From the NCBI RefSeq assembly GCF_000243075.1, contig NC_016745.1, forward strand, positions 3,055,001-3,119,000: DNA of 64,000 bases. The letters run 5' to 3'. Under the pieces are notes generated by a model. That model saw only the letters and a program-made list of their open reading frames with translations. It had not been told where the DNA came from and did no database searches. Positions 1-47,189 of the stretch are shown here, piece after piece. The first letter of the stretch is position 1; every line of letters starts with the position of its first letter. The stretch is from Oceanimonas sp. GK1 (GTDB taxonomy: Bacteria > Pseudomonadota > Gammaproteobacteria > Enterobacterales > Aeromonadaceae). The translations under genes and the position numbers were made by a program.

Positions 1-214
1 CCAGATCCTCGCTGGCGCCGGTTTCCACCGCCGTCATCAGGCCGGAGGCCTGTACCTGCTCGTGGTTGATGGCCCGCACCGTGGTTTTCATCAGCTCGCC
101 AAAGGAGCCCGGCTCCGCCGACGGAGTAATGGCGGTGCCGCCCTGGGCCTGTTGCTGCAACTGGCTGAGACGCACCAGCATGGCCTGCTGGGCACTTTCG
201 GGGGAAATGGTCAT
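1..214 (-). CDS. fliE: Flagellar hook-basal body protein FliE (C-terminus off the window)
   Basis: FliE joins the MS ring to the flagellar rod. Only the first 71 codons are inside the window. The protein starts MTISPESAQQAML and continues with the FliE-type stretch FGELMKTTVRAINHEQVQAS. The ATG at 214-212 is preceded by AGGAG seven bases upstream, inside the end of lafK, and lies only two bases after the lafK stop, so the genes are probably translationally linked. The order motY-lafK-fliE is that of Vibrio and Aeromonas lateral flagellar clusters. The remaining basal-body genes (fliF, fliG and so on) would be expected beyond the left edge. Confidence 0.85.
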   Translation of the reverse strand, partial: MTISPESAQQAMLVRLSQLQQQAQGGTAITPSAEPGSFGELMKTTVRAINHEQVQASGLMTAVETGASEDL

Positions 215-216
215 GG

Positions 217-1563
217 TCAGGCTCCTGTGGCGCGGTCGATGTCAATGCCCTGCTCACGCATGGCGGCCAGCTTGTAGCGCAGTGCCCGGGTGGTCAGCCC
301 CAGGGCTTCGGCGGTACGGGAACGGTGGCCGCTGTGCCGGCGCAGCACCTGCAATACGTAGTCGAATTCGGCGCGCTGACGGCTGGCCTGCAGCCCTTCG
401 GCAGCGGGCTCCGCCGCCGGCTGACTCAGGGTGATCAGGCTGTTGGCCGGGCGGGCGGCGCCGGGCAGCATCAGATCGGCCACGTCAATAATGGCGCTGC
501 GGGCCAGGATCAGCGCTCGCTGAATGACGTTTTCCAGCTCGCGAATGTTGCCCGGCCAGGGATGGCCCAGCAGGGCGCGCTCGGCGTCGGCACTGAAGCG
601 GAACGACTCGCCCTCGCCGTATTTGTGCAGAAAATGCCGGGCCAGGGGCATGATGTCTTCGACCCGCTCGCGCAGCGGCGGCCAGCCCAGGGGCAGCACG
701 TCCAGGCGGTAGAACAGATCTTCGCGGAATTCCCCGGCACTCACCGCCTCGCGCAGATCCTTGTTGCTCGCCGCCACGATGCGCACATTCAGCCGCACCT
801 TCTGGTGGCTGCCCAGGCGCTCCACTTCCCTTTCCTGCAGCACCCGCAGCAGCTTGGCCTGCAGCCCCAGGGGCATTTCGGCAATTTCATCCAGCAGAAG
901 GGTGCCGCCGTTGGCCAGCTCAAACTTGCCCGCCTGGGCCTGGGCCGCGCCGGTGTAGGCGCCCTTGCTGTAACCGAACAGCACCGCCTCCAGCATGCTT
1001 TCGGGAATGGCGGCACAGTTGACCGCCACAAAGGGGCCGTCACGGCGGTCGGACACCTGGTGAATGTAGCGGGCCAGGCACTCCTTGCCGGTACCGGACT
1101 CGCCGCCGATCAGCACCGCTGCCGGGGTTTGCGCCGCCCGGTAGGCCAGCTGCAGCACCTGCAGGCCGGCCCGAGAGCGTACCACCATGTCGCCGGTGCT
1201 GTGGCGCAGCGCCAGGCTCTGGCCCAGCACCCGCAGCAGCTGGCTGGGCTGAAACGGCTTGAGCACATAGTCGCTGGCGCCGGCGCGCAGGGCCTCGCCG
1301 GCCAGGGCGCTTTCTCCGTGTTCCACCATGGCCAGGATCACCGCCTGGGGAAAGCGGCTCACCAGGGTCTGAATGTGCCCGGCAAAACCGGGGCCGGTGT
1401 CGCTGTCCACCAGGATCACGCCCGGTTTGTGCTCACTGCGGGACAGCACCGTCATGGGCTCGATACGGTAACCTTCGGCCAGCAGGGCCCCGTGACAGAC
1501 ATCGGACAGGCCGCCCGTTGAAATCAGCCACAGCAAAGAAGAAGACTGAGTCCCCATGTTCAT
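217..1563 (-). CDS. lafK: Sigma-54-dependent lateral flagellar regulator LafK
   Basis: An NtrC-family activator of 448 residues. Residues about 1-115 form a receiver-like domain with an acidic patch at D53/D55 and a lysine in LKPF near 102. The AAA+ domain follows, with Walker A GESGTGKE at 154-161, the sigma-54 contact loop as GAYTGA at 201-206 (Tyr in place of the usual Phe, as in many family members), and Walker B TLLLDE at 221-226. A Fis-type helix-turn-helix (TAEALGLTTRALRYKL) closes the protein. The start ATG overlaps the motY stop as ATGA. In Vibrio parahaemolyticus LafK activates lateral flagellar sigma-54 promoters. The assignment to lafK rather than flrC rests on the neighbours motY, fliE and fliMNPQR-flhBA. 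Confidence 0.88.
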   Translation of the reverse strand: MNMGTQSSSLLWLISTGGLSDVCHGALLAEGYRIEPMTVLSRSEHKPGVILVDSDTGPGFAGHIQTLVSRFPQAVILAMVEHGESALAGEALRAGASDYVLKPFQPSQLLRVLGQSLALRHSTGDMVVRSRAGLQVLQLAYRAAQTPAAVLIGGESGTGKECLARYIHQVSDRRDGPFVAVNCAAIPESMLEAVLFGYSKGAYTGAAQAQAGKFELANGGTLLLDEIAEMPLGLQAKLLRVLQEREVERLGSHQKVRLNVRIVAASNKDLREAVSAGEFREDLFYRLDVLPLGWPPLRERVEDIMPLARHFLHKYGEGESFRFSADAERALLGHPWPGNIRELENVIQRALILARSAIIDVADLMLPGAARPANSLITLSQPAAEPAAEGLQASRQRAEFDYVLQVLRRHSGHRSRTAEALGLTTRALRYKLAAMREQGIDIDRATGA

Positions 1564-2420
1564 GATGCTTGCTCCGCCTTGATAAGAGAAATAACGACGC
1601 GCCGGTTCTGGTAACGGCCGGCGGGGGTGGAGTTGTCGGTTGCAGGATAGGCTTCACCAAAGGCGCGAATGGCCATCGGCAGCGCAGGATGGAAGCGGCG
1701 CAGCTCATCGGCCACGCGCTCGGCCCGTTGCCGGGAGATCTCAAGGTTCAGGGCCTCGTCGCCGCGGTTGTCGGTATGGGATTCCAGCAGCAGGGACGCC
1801 GGTTTGCGCTCACCGATATGGGCGGCCAGGGCCGCCAGTTGCCGGCGCTGCTCCGGGCTCAGCGCCCGGGTGCCACTCTGAAAGTGCAGGGTCAGACGCT
1901 CGCCGTTAAAGGCGCGATCCACACCGCCCTCGCCCCGGCACAGCCGAAAGTCGTTGTGGGCCTGCTGAAAATGAATGCCGGAGATCACCAGCCGGTGGGG
2001 GTTGCCCGGTGCGGAAATGGCCAGCCAGCGGCCGTCGGCCAGGGCATGGAGCGCCTCGGGAATGTGCTGGTCAAAACGCAGTTGCTGGCGCTGCCAGTGG
2101 CTTTGAGCCAGGGGCTGCTCGGTCGCCGGCTGCCAGGGGGCCGACACCACCGACAGGGTGGTCTGACCGCCCTGTATGCCCCGGGCGTGCCAGTTCACTT
2201 CCAGCACCGGGGGTGCTTTACCGTTGGCGCTGAAACGGGCGGTGGCCACCTGCTCGATAGCATGTTCCAGCACACAACGGGAGGCCGTGCGTTCGGCGCG
2301 CCAGGCAGCCTGATCCAGATCGGTCGCGTAATCGGCGACGACCCCGGGGCTGCCCAGCAACACACCAAGGCAGGCCATGCCTTTCAGTGTTGCAAGGTTG
2401 TTCATGTTGCTTCTTGTCAT
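1560..2420 (-). CDS. motY: Sodium-type flagellar motor ring protein MotY
   Basis: A 286-residue secreted protein with an N-terminal hydrophobic signal sequence ending near GVVA, a MotY-type N-terminal domain, and a C-terminal OmpA-like peptidoglycan-binding domain containing LESHTDNRGDEALNLEISRQ. MotY forms the T ring that helps anchor stator units around the motor. A second possible start lies five codons inside (ATG at 2405); neither start has a strong ribosome-binding site. It is the first gene of the motY-lafK-fliE unit and sits directly downstream of a c-di-GMP riboswitch. Lateral flagella are usually proton-driven but their clusters carry a motY in Vibrio, so the name does not settle the coupling ion. 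Confidence 0.85.
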   Translation of the reverse strand: MTRSNMNNLATLKGMACLGVLLGSPGVVADYATDLDQAAWRAERTASRCVLEHAIEQVATARFSANGKAPPVLEVNWHARGIQGGQTTLSVVSAPWQPATEQPLAQSHWQRQQLRFDQHIPEALHALADGRWLAISAPGNPHRLVISGIHFQQAHNDFRLCRGEGGVDRAFNGERLTLHFQSGTRALSPEQRRQLAALAAHIGERKPASLLLESHTDNRGDEALNLEISRQRAERVADELRRFHPALPMAIRAFGEAYPATDNSTPAGRYQNRRVVISLIKAEQAS

Positions 2421-2425
2421 TTACT

Positions 2426-2444
2426 GCCGGCACAAAGTACCGGC
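2426..2444 (-). promoter_or_regulatory. Small hairpin just ahead of motY
   Basis: On the minus strand GCCGG and CCGGC (2440-2444 and 2426-2430) can pair around a nine-base loop, ending five bases before the motY ATG at 2420. This would occlude the initiation region, so it is a candidate translational expression platform for the upstream riboswitch. The pairing is seen directly; the role is inference. Confidence 0.3.
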
Positions 2445-2514
2445 CCGGCACCAGGCCAGGATGTGAAGTAACGCTGAGAAAGGTTTTACAGGTGGCGAAA
2501 CGCCGGAAGGTAAC

Positions 2515-2608
2515 CTGCCTTGGCGGCCCCGCTATCCTAGGAACATGGTTCCCTTAGACCGGAAGCTTTGCGTCCTGCGCTTTCACGCAGTTTGCCCTTG
2601 TCATCAGC
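2515..2608 (-). ncRNA. Cyclic-di-GMP-I riboswitch (GEMM-I) in the motY-lafK-fliE leader
   Basis: Read on the minus strand, the segment carries the GEMM-I landmarks in order. They are AAGGGCAAAC; a six-pair stem CTGCGT/GCGCAG capped by a GAAA tetraloop; GGACGCAAAGC; CCGGTCTAAG opening the second helix; a GGAAC/GTTCC hairpin with loop CAT; then CCTAGGATAGCGGGGC. These match the conserved tetraloop, its CCTAA/TAGG-type receptor, and the ligand pocket residues of the Vibrio Vc2 aptamer. The outer P1 pairing is not obvious. The aptamer begins about 190 bases before motY and follows the flhA terminator, so it lies in the leader of motY-lafK-fliE. Whether the platform acts on transcription or translation is not clear from the sequence. 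Confidence 0.9.
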
Positions 2609-2624
2609 AATCGTATTTCTGTGC

Positions 2625-2637
2625 GTCAATATTTGAC
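2625..2637. promoter_or_regulatory. Palindrome GTCAATATTTGAC upstream of the riboswitch
   Basis: GTCAA-TAT-TTGAC is a perfect five-base inverted repeat between the flhA terminator and the riboswitch, where the motY promoter should lie. On the minus strand a TTGACG hexamer overlaps it but no convincing -10 follows, and no sigma-54 spacing (GG-N10-GC) was found here. It may be an operator; the bound protein is unknown. Confidence 0.3.
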
Positions 2638-2638
2638 T

Positions 2639-2670
2639 AAAAAAACAAGGACTTTGCAACCCTGTCCTTG
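2639..2670 (-). terminator. Rho-independent terminator after flhA
   Basis: On the minus strand the seven-pair stem CAAGGAC/GTCCTTG (2664-2670 with 2646-2652) is followed at once by seven T residues. It lies 55 bases after the flhA stop and separates the fliM-flhA unit from motY-lafK-fliE. Confidence 0.85.
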
Positions 2671-2724: not shown

Positions 2725-4797
2725 TCAGCCCAGGGTGCCGACCACGTCAATCTGAATGTGCTCGGGCACCTCGTTGTAGGACAGCACCTTGAGGCCTTTG
2801 GCGAACACGGCGCCGTAACGGGCCAGCAGCGGACGCAACTGGGGCATCACCAGCAGCACCGCCGGCACGCCCTGCTCCTGCAGGGTTTCGGCCACCGCCG
2901 GCATTTTCTGCTGCAGCTGGGACAGCAAATTGGGCTCGACCGGAAAGCTGTCGATGCTGGTTTTGGCATTCTGCTGCTGGGCCTGGCCCAGGGCACCGAG
3001 CAGGGTCTGCTCCAGGGTGTCGGCCAGGGTAAAGGCACTCAACACGCCGCGTTCTCCCATGATCTGGCGGACAATGACCCGCTTCAGAGCACAACGTACA
3101 TCCGCCGCCAACAGCACGGGATCCTTGGTGATCTCGGCCCCTTCCACCAGGGCGGTGGCGATGGTGACCACGTCCGCCAGACTAACCTGCTCCTTCAACA
3201 GGTAGCGGAACACCCTGAGCAGCAGCACCGGCGGCACCGCCTCGGCCAGCAGCTCGGCGAGCTTGGGCGCCTGCTGCTGCAGCCGCTCCTGCCAGCGGCT
3301 CACGTCATCCAGCACCAGCAGCTCCGGCAGGTGCTCGCGCATCAGCTTGCTGACGTGGGTGGCCACCACGCTGGCGGAGTCCACCACCGCATAGCCGTAG
3401 TTCAGCGCCTTGGCCTTGTTGCCCGGCTCGATCCACACCGCCGGCATGCCGTAGGCGGGATCCTGGGTCAGCTCGCCGTCCACCTCGCCGTAGGTCTCCC
3501 CCTTGTTGATGGCCAGCATACGCTCGCCGTCGGCGCTGCCACTGGCCATCACCACCCCGGCCAGCTTGATGCGGTACTCCTGGGGCGACAGTTGCAGGTT
3601 GTCGCGCACCCGCACCTCGGGCAGCAGAAAGCCGGCCTGCTCCGACAGGCTCTTGCGCACCCCGCGAATACGGCCCAGCAGGGGCGCGCCCTGCTCCTCA
3701 TTCACCAGGTTGACCAGCCGGTAGCCCAGCTCCAGGGTCAGCAGATCCACCGCAGGCAGATCCTGCCAGCCGAGCGCGGTATCCTGCTCCCGGGCCAGCA
3801 GGGTCTCGGCCTGCTCCAGGGGATCGGCCTGAGTGGCCCGGGACTGCTGCAGACGCCAGGCCACGTAGCCCAGTACGGCGGCAAACAGCAGAAACACCAG
3901 GGTCGGCATGCCGGGCACCAGCCCCAGGATCAGCATGACGGCGGCGCCGGTCCATACCACCTTGGGCGACGCCAGCAGTTGCTGGCCCACCTGGGACGAC
4001 ATGTCACTGTCGTCGTTGACCCGGGTCACGATAATGGCGGCGGCGGTGGCCAGCAGCAGCGAGGGGATCTGGGCCACCAGGCCGTCCCCTATGGTCAGCA
4101 GGGCAAAGCGCTGGAAGGCCTCGGCGGCGCTCAGTTGATACTGGAACATGCCGATCATGAAGCCGCCCAGCAGGTTGATGAACAGGATCAGCAGGCCGGC
4201 GATGGCATCCCCGCGCACGAACTTGGAAGCCCCGTCCATGGAGCCGTAGAAGTCGGCTTCCCGGGCCACTTCCTGCCGGCGGTGGCGGGCCTGCTCCTGA
4301 TCGATGGCGCCGGCGTTAAGGTCGGCGTCAATGGCCATCTGCTTGCCCGGCAGGGCGTCCAGGGTAAAGCGCGCCGCCACTTCCGATATCCGCTCGCCGC
4401 CCTTGGTGATCACCACAAAGTTGATGATCATCAGGATCACGAACACCACCATGCCCACCACGTAGTTGCCGCCGATCACCACCTCGCCAAAGGCTTCAAT
4501 CACCTTGCCCGCCGCTCCCGCCCCCTCGTGGCCGCTGAGCAGCACCACCCGGGTCGAGGCCACGTTGAGGGTCAGCCGCATCAGGGTGGCCACCAGCAGC
4601 ACGGTGGGAAACACCGAAAAGTCCAGGGGCCGGCGGGCCGACACCGCCACCAGCAGCACCAGGATCGCCAGCACGATATTGAAGGTAAAAAGCGCGTCCA
4701 GCAGCCAGGGCGGCAGCGGCAATATCACCATGGCGAGCACGGCGATCAGCAGCAGGGGCACGGCCATATAGGGGCGATCAAGGCCTTTCCAGTTCAC
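2725..4797 (-). CDS. flhA: Flagellar type III export gate protein FlhA
   Basis: FlhA is the largest part of the flagellar export gate in the inner membrane and receives substrate-chaperone complexes through its cytoplasmic domain. The 690-residue length is normal. The N-terminal half is a set of hydrophobic helices beginning MAVPLLLIAVLAMVILPLPP and containing the family stretch RGDAIAGLLILFINLLGGF. The C-terminal half is soluble. It lies ten bases after flhB and is the last gene before a terminator. Gene order points to the lateral rather than the polar system. Confidence 0.93.
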   Translation of the reverse strand: MNWKGLDRPYMAVPLLLIAVLAMVILPLPPWLLDALFTFNIVLAILVLLVAVSARRPLDFSVFPTVLLVATLMRLTLNVASTRVVLLSGHEGAGAAGKVIEAFGEVVIGGNYVVGMVVFVILMIINFVVITKGGERISEVAARFTLDALPGKQMAIDADLNAGAIDQEQARHRRQEVAREADFYGSMDGASKFVRGDAIAGLLILFINLLGGFMIGMFQYQLSAAEAFQRFALLTIGDGLVAQIPSLLLATAAAIIVTRVNDDSDMSSQVGQQLLASPKVVWTGAAVMLILGLVPGMPTLVFLLFAAVLGYVAWRLQQSRATQADPLEQAETLLAREQDTALGWQDLPAVDLLTLELGYRLVNLVNEEQGAPLLGRIRGVRKSLSEQAGFLLPEVRVRDNLQLSPQEYRIKLAGVVMASGSADGERMLAINKGETYGEVDGELTQDPAYGMPAVWIEPGNKAKALNYGYAVVDSASVVATHVSKLMREHLPELLVLDDVSRWQERLQQQAPKLAELLAEAVPPVLLLRVFRYLLKEQVSLADVVTIATALVEGAEITKDPVLLAADVRCALKRVIVRQIMGERGVLSAFTLADTLEQTLLGALGQAQQQNAKTSIDSFPVEPNLLSQLQQKMPAVAETLQEQGVPAVLLVMPQLRPLLARYGAVFAKGLKVLSYNEVPEHIQIDVVGTLG

Positions 4798-46082: not shown

Positions 46083-47189
46083 ATGACCCGTCCTACTGAC
46101 CAGCCCGGCCACACCCCCGCCCAGGATGAAGAAGCCCGCCTTGCCGCCCTGAACGCCTACGGGATCCTGGATACGCCCCCGGAGCCGGCGTTTGATGACA
46201 TCACCGAGCTGGCGGCGTTGATCTGCGATACGCCCATCGCCGTGATCAACTTCGTCGACCGGCACCGCCAGTGGTTTAAGTCCGAACAGGGGCTGGGAGT
46301 GAGGGAAACCCCGCTGGACATCTCCATTTGTGCCCATGTCATTTTGCAGTCGGAGTTATTTGTCGTGCCCGACACTCGACAGGACGCCCGCTTTGCCTGC
46401 AATCCGCTGGTGACCGGAGAGCCCTATTTGCGCTTTTATGCCGGCGCCCTGCTCAAAAGTCCGGAGGGCTTTCCCCTGGGCACCCTGTGCGTACTCGACC
46501 ATCGGCCCCGGGAGCTGACGGAGAAACAGCGCATCGCCCTGACCGCCCTGGCCAGTCAGGTGATGAACAACCTGGAGCTGATACGCGTTCAACAGGCCCA
46601 GGCCGCCTTGATCGAGCAACTGCAGTCGGCCCAGAAAGAGCTGATCCATCTGGCGTCCACCGATCCCCTCACCGGCCTGTATAACCGGCGGGCCATCGAG
46701 GAGCGCCTGAGTCAGGAGCTGGCGCTCATTGAGCGGGGCCGGGCGCCGGCGGCCCTGATGCTGATGGACCTGGATCATTTTAAAACCATCAATGACGACT
46801 TTGGCCACGAAACCGGCGACAGGGTCATTGAGCACTTTGCCCGGGTTTGCAAAAACGTGTTTCGTCAGTCCGATATTATCGGTCGCTGGGGCGGTGAAGA
46901 GTTTGTGGTGCTGCTGCCCGGCGCCACCGAAGCCGAGGCCTGGCAGGCGGCGCAGCGCCTGCACCAGTCGTTGCGGCAGACACCCCTGGTCGGTGATGAG
47001 CACCCGCCGCTGCTTATCACCGTCAGTATCGGCCTGTGCAGCCTGAGCAAAGACTGCGAGCTGGAAGACACCCTGCGCCAGGCCGACGAGCTGCTCTATC
47101 AGGCCAAAGACAGTGGCAGAAACCGTACCGTCTGCGCCTCTGCAACCACCGATGGTGAAACACCTGACGACCTGACTACTCCGGACTGA
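46083..47189 (+). CDS. GAF-GGDEF diguanylate cyclase
   Basis: A 368-residue soluble protein with an N-terminal GAF domain (about 20-165; LNAYGILDTPPEPAFDDITEL is a common opening in this group) and a C-terminal GGDEF domain. The active site is GGEEF at 270-274, and the inhibitory I-site RQSD at 261-264 is present, so it should make c-di-GMP under product control. It follows the REC-EAL gene by 69 bases and completes a kinase-phosphodiesterase-cyclase set. Confidence 0.9.
   Translation: MTRPTDQPGHTPAQDEEARLAALNAYGILDTPPEPAFDDITELAALICDTPIAVINFVDRHRQWFKSEQGLGVRETPLDISICAHVILQSELFVVPDTRQDARFACNPLVTGEPYLRFYAGALLKSPEGFPLGTLCVLDHRPRELTEKQRIALTALASQVMNNLELIRVQQAQAALIEQLQSAQKELIHLASTDPLTGLYNRRAIEERLSQELALIERGRAPAALMLMDLDHFKTINDDFGHETGDRVIEHFARVCKNVFRQSDIIGRWGGEEFVVLLPGATEAEAWQAAQRLHQSLRQTPLVGDEHPPLLITVSIGLCSLSKDCELEDTLRQADELLYQAKDSGRNRTVCASATTDGETPDDLTTPD

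Follow-up and report, generated by a model that had tools for sequence, protein, structure and literature searches.

A conserved c-di-GMP-I riboswitch aptamer in the leader of the lateral flagellar genes motY-lafK of Oceanimonas sp. GK1

The window, by which we mean the whole 64 kb stretch of DNA analysed here, carries a c-di-GMP-I riboswitch aptamer in the 5′ leader of motY-lafK-fliE, and we consider it likely, with a probability of about 0.8 and judging from the sequence and its conservation, that this riboswitch controls motY-lafK. The riboswitch class is a known one, and in the literature covered we did not find it described at a regulator of the lateral flagella, which serve movement on surfaces. 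In favour of the riboswitch we counted a single strong match, the conservation of its position, the additional copies in one relative (G063), the changes in the closing stem P1, the folds and the 30 GGDEF matches in the genome; against it we counted the lack of a hairpin with a U tract in the window, the failure to recognise a promoter, the flat accessibility of the start site and the g5 loci that have no aptamer.

The match to RF01051 (c-di-GMP-I) runs from 2606 to 2519 on the minus strand, scores 78.3 bits against a gathering threshold of 35 (E 1.1e-13; cmscan, Rfam 15) and covers model positions 1-87 of 87, which is the full length of the model. It bears out the c-di-GMP-I call that the earlier note had made on the minus strand of 2515-2608, and all of the GEMM-I blocks named there (the GAAA loop, the receptor strands and the pocket segments) are found on that strand; the ends given there stand less exactly, as they differ slightly from those of Rfam, although the proposed P1 spans to 2610 and 2515. 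No other Rfam family reached its gathering level in the 64 kb window, and no second RF01051 match was found in the genome (3.53 Mb, 3 contigs). The aptamer and its segments, the latter given by the letters of the window, are the following.

2519..2606, minus strand: c-di-GMP-I (GEMM-I) aptamer, Rfam RF01051, full length
2590-2575, minus strand: CTGCGTGAAAGCGCAG, which holds the GAAA loop
2575-2565, minus strand: GGACGCAAAGC, aptamer segment
2560-2551, minus strand: GGTCTAAGGG, aptamer segment
2534-2522, minus strand: TAGCGGGGCCGCC, aptamer segment

The GAAA tetraloop hairpin and its receptor strands are present on the minus strand in CTGCGTGAAAGCGCAG and in GGTCTAAGGG with CCTAGG, and the letters at the ligand contacts, which we take to be G20, A47 and C92 in Vc2 numbering, are present in the core AGGGCAAAC, in CGCAAAGC and in ...GCCGCC. 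The aptamer lies 113 nt upstream of motY on the same strand, a 5′ leader position that is kept in relatives. A 16-codon frame inside it, read by eye, was set aside. At the level of sequence the element is confirmed as a real, conserved member of the c-di-GMP-I class, with c-di-GMP as its predicted ligand.

The aptamer sits between flhA and motY-lafK-fliE in one of two flagellar systems. Elsewhere in the genome there are a second flhA (53% identical, 0.16 Mb away), another MotY-like match (30%) and a further activator that resembles LafK (54%), and the cluster in the window is therefore one of two.

8083-7709, minus strand: fliN, from the gene order of the window
7719-6985, minus strand: fliP, from the gene order of the window
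5938-4808, minus strand: flhB, from the gene order of the window
2725..4797, minus strand: flhA, last gene of the upstream operon (FHIPEP; TIGR01398 above its cut-off)
2639..2670, minus strand: terminator-like stem-loop with seven T after flhA, read from the sequence
1560..2405, minus strand: motY (lateral), frame open from 2420 (MotY_N and OmpA domains)
217..1563, minus strand: lafK, sigma-54 activator of the lateral system (Sigma54_activat, HTH_8, context and tree)
1..214, minus strand: fliE, continuing past the window edge (Pfam; locus beyond the window)

The claim that motY-lafK-fliE lies downstream holds, as domains and context identify MotY, a LafK-type sigma-54 activator and FliE; beyond the window fliE is followed by fliF, fliG and fliI. 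NCBIfam contains no LafK model, and the name lafK is based on its domains, its context and the tree. The protein has an AAA+ sigma-54 domain and a Fis-type HTH, its gene stands before fliE of the second flagellar cluster, and the LafK tree places it with the LafK loci of named Aeromonas, Shewanella and Photobacterium; a Response_reg match lies below its curated cut-off. By analogy with relatives such as A. hydrophila, LafK would act as the activator of the lateral genes: in the part of PMC5013049 available to us, a lafK mutant of A. hydrophila shows swarming reduced from 6.9 to 1.1 cm and a loss of class II and class III promoter activity. The start of motY is more likely to be the ATG at 2405 than that at 2420, since in eight aligned genus leaders a start codon is better kept in the 2405 column (ATG in 7/8, TTG in 1/8) than in the 2420 column (ATG in 4/8). 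The stem-loop at 2639-2670 has too long a loop for our terminator scan to catch. A GGDEF domain also lies within the window, at about 46653-47126 on the plus strand (G000:C1:3101653-3102126).

Relatives keep the aptamer before motY-lafK, a point that the earlier note had raised: it is present in all eight genus genomes that have the operon and at loci beyond the genus. Among 75 family genomes searched for RF01051, MotY and LafK, a lateral-type LafK, defined by E below 1e-135, occurs in 31, and 28 of these have the aptamer immediately upstream. It accompanies 8/8 lateral LafK loci in the window's own genus (23 genomes), 19/20 in g2 (37 genomes, including the Aeromonas lacus-like G017 of the window's family f1, whose LafK is identical to that of Aeromonas lacus and thereby marks the family as Aeromonadaceae), 1/1 in g4 and 0/2 in g5. 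In G042 motY is split over two contigs, one of which carries the aptamer and the 5′ part of motY and the other lafK. A sub-threshold RF01051 match stands at the right place in G028, between flhA and lafK (L186 4831-4921, 28.3 bits against 35, E 0.054), and by its sequence we regard it as a decayed aptamer. The two g5 loci (G074 and G071) have the same gene order with flhA present, and no RF01051 match was found at them at E up to 1. In G063, of g4, three c-di-GMP-I aptamers lie in the lateral cluster (L201, 984-1071, 7664-7755 and 7893-7985), a tandem pair in the interval from flhA to lafK and a third directly before fliM; because of these extra aptamers in the same cluster, the lateral system is likely to be the true target. 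The lateral motY frame of G057 (G057:C158:7458-8312) contains one TGA, which is either an assembly error or the mark of a broken gene.

A LafK search of 394 genomes of the order gave matches at 1e-115 in 42, of which 25 lie outside the family; 23 of these 25 loci were covered for the aptamer (left out were G172, at a contig edge, and G409). The aptamer is present at 11 of the 23 and is spread over four family-level groups, with 4/4 loci in f16, 3/3 in f7, 3/3 in f2 and 1/8 in f6, and 0/5 in f22. Among the named loci in the matches listed, Aeromonas lacus has the aptamer, and none was found at Ferrimonas balearica, two Photobacterium, three Shewanella, Parashewanella, Parendozoicomonas, Pluralibacter and Buttiauxella. 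A rule by which the aptamer would accompany flhA beside lafK was rejected: the three f2 loci have the aptamer and no flhA match in the stretch examined, and G074 and G071 have flhA and no aptamer.

The LafK tree was built from the loci gathered, a non-random sample of 65 rows, 40 with the aptamer and 25 without. All 40 aptamer-bearing loci and the three aptamer-less family loci fall on one side with a support of 85/88, which is short of the program's threshold for a grouping to count as shown and is not strong. Three changes suffice for the presence of the aptamer on this tree, and a clade of the 40 aptamer-bearing loci alone is rejected (p 0.0009), which fits the three aptamer-less family loci as losses. 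The LafK of G309 (L177), the only f6 locus with the aptamer, groups with f7, apart from the other f6 rows, and hints that the lateral cluster of this genome was acquired by transfer; f6 otherwise lies among the Shewanella rows, and f22 near Photobacterium. Judged by these sequences, the aptamer at lafK has probably a single origin and has been kept in several families.

The leader holds the following further elements.

2607..2610, minus strand: proposed 5′ strand of P1 (UUGC), pairing with 2518-2515 in 8/8 genus leaders
2488..2518, minus strand: hairpin GCAGGU...ACCUGU, whose 5′ arm holds the 3′ strand of P1 (2518-2515), with no U tract after it (folds, consensus fold)
2596..2608, minus strand: 5′ strand GCUGAUGACAAGG of a proposed long-range anti-P1 helix (invariant in 8/8, consensus fold)
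2473..2483, minus strand: 3′ strand CCUUUCUCAGC of that helix, a pyrimidine block (invariant in 8/8, consensus fold)
2444..2460, minus strand: G+C-rich hairpin before motY, its paired letters varying between genomes (consensus fold)
2426..2444, minus strand: second G+C-rich hairpin before motY (consensus fold)
2621..2645, minus strand: conserved block TTTAGTCAA.T..TG.CGCA, a promoter or operator candidate (8 aligned genus members)

P1 is invariant in the genus (UUGC/GCAG in 8/8 leaders) and hence shows no covariation there. In the Aeromonas group it was tallied in 13 of 19 leaders, six being excluded because their letters differ, and seven pairs are kept in 11-13 of the 13 rows. Two of these pairs change on both sides, and the two-sided changes follow two row groups and may amount to one event. 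In f16 six pairs hold in 3/4 leaders, the changes being one-sided. The 3′ strand of P1 also builds an alternative local hairpin in several groups, with GCAGGU/ACCUGU in the genus, CAAGGC/GCCUUG and the like in Aeromonas, and CUGAGGU/GCCUCGG and GCUAAGGU/ACCUUGGU in two f16 leaders. The CAAGG-type hairpin occurs in 14/19 Aeromonas-group leaders, and only 7/19 have a hairpin followed by at least three U within the next six bases. All five Aeromonas-group leaders folded have the hairpin form as their minimum, with the P1 fold 2.5-4.8 kcal/mol above it. In the eight genus leaders the P1 fold costs 3.5-7.6 kcal/mol once the transcript reaches the end of the hairpin and 10.7-13.7 kcal/mol when it extends past the pyrimidine block; given this rise with transcript length, the ligand would have to bind early.

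In the long-range helix, GCUGAUGACAAGG at the 5′ edge of the aptamer is complementary to CCUUUCUCAGC, 35 nt past the aptamer, through 11 pairs with two bulges. Both strands are invariant in 8/8 genus leaders, so the helix has no covariation. It belongs to the minimum fold of 7/8 genus leaders in segments of about 172 nt; the minimum folds of the window's own 172-nt segment (0 pairs) and 238-nt leader lack it, and a window segment that ends at the CCUUUCUCAGC block folds with it. On energy alone the helix was rejected, as its duplex falls under 0.05 against shuffles in 0/8 genus leaders and 3/40 leaders overall, which is about chance; in 3/8 genus leaders, the window's included, there is a better downstream partner than CCUUUCUCAGC. 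Counting for the helix, a similar partner in f16 tracks a change in the 5′ strand (GAUAAGG/CCUUAUC in two leaders, GAAAAGG/CCUUUUC in one), and f7 has a partner in 2/3 leaders (p 0.015 and 0.035).

Other output signals were sought in the same leader. A simple hairpin directly after the aptamer, with bulges disallowed, was found in none of the eight genus leaders, the window's among them, and an intrinsic terminator between aptamer and motY was rejected, the scan giving one site (2459-2440) against a shuffle mean of 0.4. The promoter scan recognised no sigma-70 consensus site at the leader, and a sigma-54 promoter at TTGC 2610 was dropped, its spacing to the conserved CGCA varying between genus members. 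The block at 2645-2621 is kept in 8/8 genus members, and its copy in the window holds an inverted repeat, GTCAA-ATA-TTGAC. Accessibility of the motY start site hardly differs between the folds (0.53 and 0.61). In three f16 leaders (L173, L174 and L175) a short frame starting MY(V/A)A, between aptamer and motY, looks conserved by eye, and pairing is possible between this frame and the purine-rich letters that precede the motY start, as for CUUUCCUC/GAGGAAAG in L174. Aeromonas-group leaders (e.g. L080) have a strongly conserved block just before the lafK start, GTTCTGTTGATTG...CAATCAC.GGTTC.GG, a possible hairpin that lies far downstream of the aptamer.

We propose that c-di-GMP would bind during synthesis of the leader and lock the closing stem P1 (2610-2607 with 2518-2515), which would preclude the hairpin that draws on the 3′ strand of P1 (2518-2488) and, within the window's genus, also the proposed long-range helix (2608-2596 with 2483-2473); when the ligand is absent, the hairpin and long-range folds would win. 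In the part of Aeromonas where the matching hairpin looks like a terminator, the ligand would let lafK be transcribed, and the modelled exclusion of that hairpin by P1 favours an ON-switch layout. In the window leader the candidate output step would be Rho, RNA decay or translation, and by this means cellular c-di-GMP would control whether the lateral flagellar activator is expressed. Because the homologous hairpin of part of Aeromonas looks like a terminator, we lean by homology to an ON switch in the window, at slightly better than even odds, with OFF a little under even. That c-di-GMP turns the lateral regulator ON through an antiterminator P1 across a large gammaproteobacterial group with two flagellar systems is a tentative, model-based extension to which we give less than an even chance.

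The strongest alternative retains the riboswitch and reverses its sign, c-di-GMP turning motY-lafK off, for example by freeing the pyrimidine stretch at about 2483-2455 for Rho or nucleases. We regard it as a serious contender, somewhat short of even odds. The pyrimidine block is invariant in 8/8 genus leaders and, with the aptamer fold imposed, goes from a mean unpaired probability of 0.16 to one of 0.37, and, in the part of PMC6366702 available to us, c-di-GMP commonly favours the sessile state and Cd1 of C. difficile is a c-di-GMP-I OFF switch before flagellar genes; the P1 fold of the Aeromonas leaders, however, points the other way. It appears improbable that the aptamer is real and no longer works in this genome, or has a target other than motY-lafK. 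The length of the 113 nt spacer to the motY start, the fact that no output element was recognised in the window leader and the decay seen within the group, G028 having only its sub-threshold copy, would all suit such a reading, but the score is high, the pocket segments are intact, further leader blocks are kept in 8/8 and the same target recurs in distant groups.

Less probable still, the RNA could sense another cyclic dinucleotide, such as 3′,3′-cGAMP. Close variants of the GEMM class bind cGAMP, and two of the f2 laf aptamers (L181 3900-3982 and L182 194-277) match the variant family RF03167 best, with 61.1 and 59.4 against a cut-off of 59; the third (L178) has RF01051 as its best match. 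The window aptamer, by contrast, matches RF01051 best, not RF03167 (c-di-GMP-I-GGC), and its 5′ core AGGGCAAAC has G, not A, at the putative specificity position, where G versus A presumably decides between c-di-GMP and cGAMP; the A for G of the cGAMP-type GEMM is thus lacking in this copy. Chance resemblance to RF01051 is negligible, being ruled out by the score (E 1.1e-13) and the same position in many genomes, and no point was found in its favour.

MotL is reportedly the PilZ protein of Shewanella lateral flagella and, like ScrABC and LafV of Vibrio, ties c-di-GMP to lateral flagella too, but through proteins. The earlier note had mentioned protein-mediated c-di-GMP control of the Vibrio laf genes, and this agrees with PMC9303241, a review of c-di-GMP and Vibrio flagella that in the part available to us describes ScrABC and LafV, and whose main text, to the same extent, does not contain the word ‘riboswitch’. 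Protein receptors of c-di-GMP may act here as well, and the phrase ‘without a protein sensor’ is therefore restricted to the riboswitch step. The aptamer resembles Vc1 and Vc2 of Vibrio cholerae (RF01051) in sequence and structure over the whole model and in its 5′ leader position, whereas its target differs from those named in the part of PMC6366702 available to us. These include gbpA and tfoX, together with fimbrial and chitinase genes for A. hydrophila, and no regulator of lateral flagella is among them; in the same part of the review, Cd1 is described as preceding the flgB flagellar operon of Clostridioides difficile, which includes the regulator sigD. Cd1 is thus alike in standing before flagellar genes that include a regulator, but it is an OFF switch, has a terminator and serves a single flagellar system, whereas in the window the target is the sigma-54 activator for one system out of two, and no terminator is evident. 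In V. parahaemolyticus, by the available part of PMC4406679, a c-di-GMP riboswitch lies at VPBB_A1460-1461, and lafK is VPBB_A1405. Our literature search, whose coverage stopped short of the early GEMM survey tables, found no published riboswitch at lafK, and within that coverage agrees with the earlier note, which knew of none. The available part of PMC2556355 counts 11 riboswitches, their genes unnamed, in the genome of an A. salmonicida strain that has a lateral cluster, and the lafK aptamer may already have been annotated without comment there or by automatic annotation.

Aptamers of this class were also seen at other targets. In three g5 genomes (G065, G066 and G070; L233, L234 and L235) they precede a levansucrase (GH68) gene that has a GH32 gene after it, as called by Pfam on L233 and judged alike by eye on L234 and L235, and RNA control of levan is possible in these genomes. 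Others precede GGDEF-EAL proteins (L226 in G039, of the window's own genus, and L232 in G065) and, again in G039, a CHASE3-HAMP-GAF hybrid kinase (L227). The available part of PMC6366702 calls it rare for a riboswitch to precede a gene of c-di-GMP metabolism.

If the riboswitch reading is true, the lateral flagellar genes have a direct RNA sensor of c-di-GMP at their head, and the testable question is raised of whether c-di-GMP licenses or forbids lateral flagella in Aeromonas and its kin. The groups with the aptamer may be wired unlike f22, next to Photobacterium in the tree, in which 0/5 tested lafK loci have it. If the switch is ON, c-di-GMP rising upon surface contact would permit lateral flagella to be made, contrary to the usual rule in which c-di-GMP shuts flagella down.
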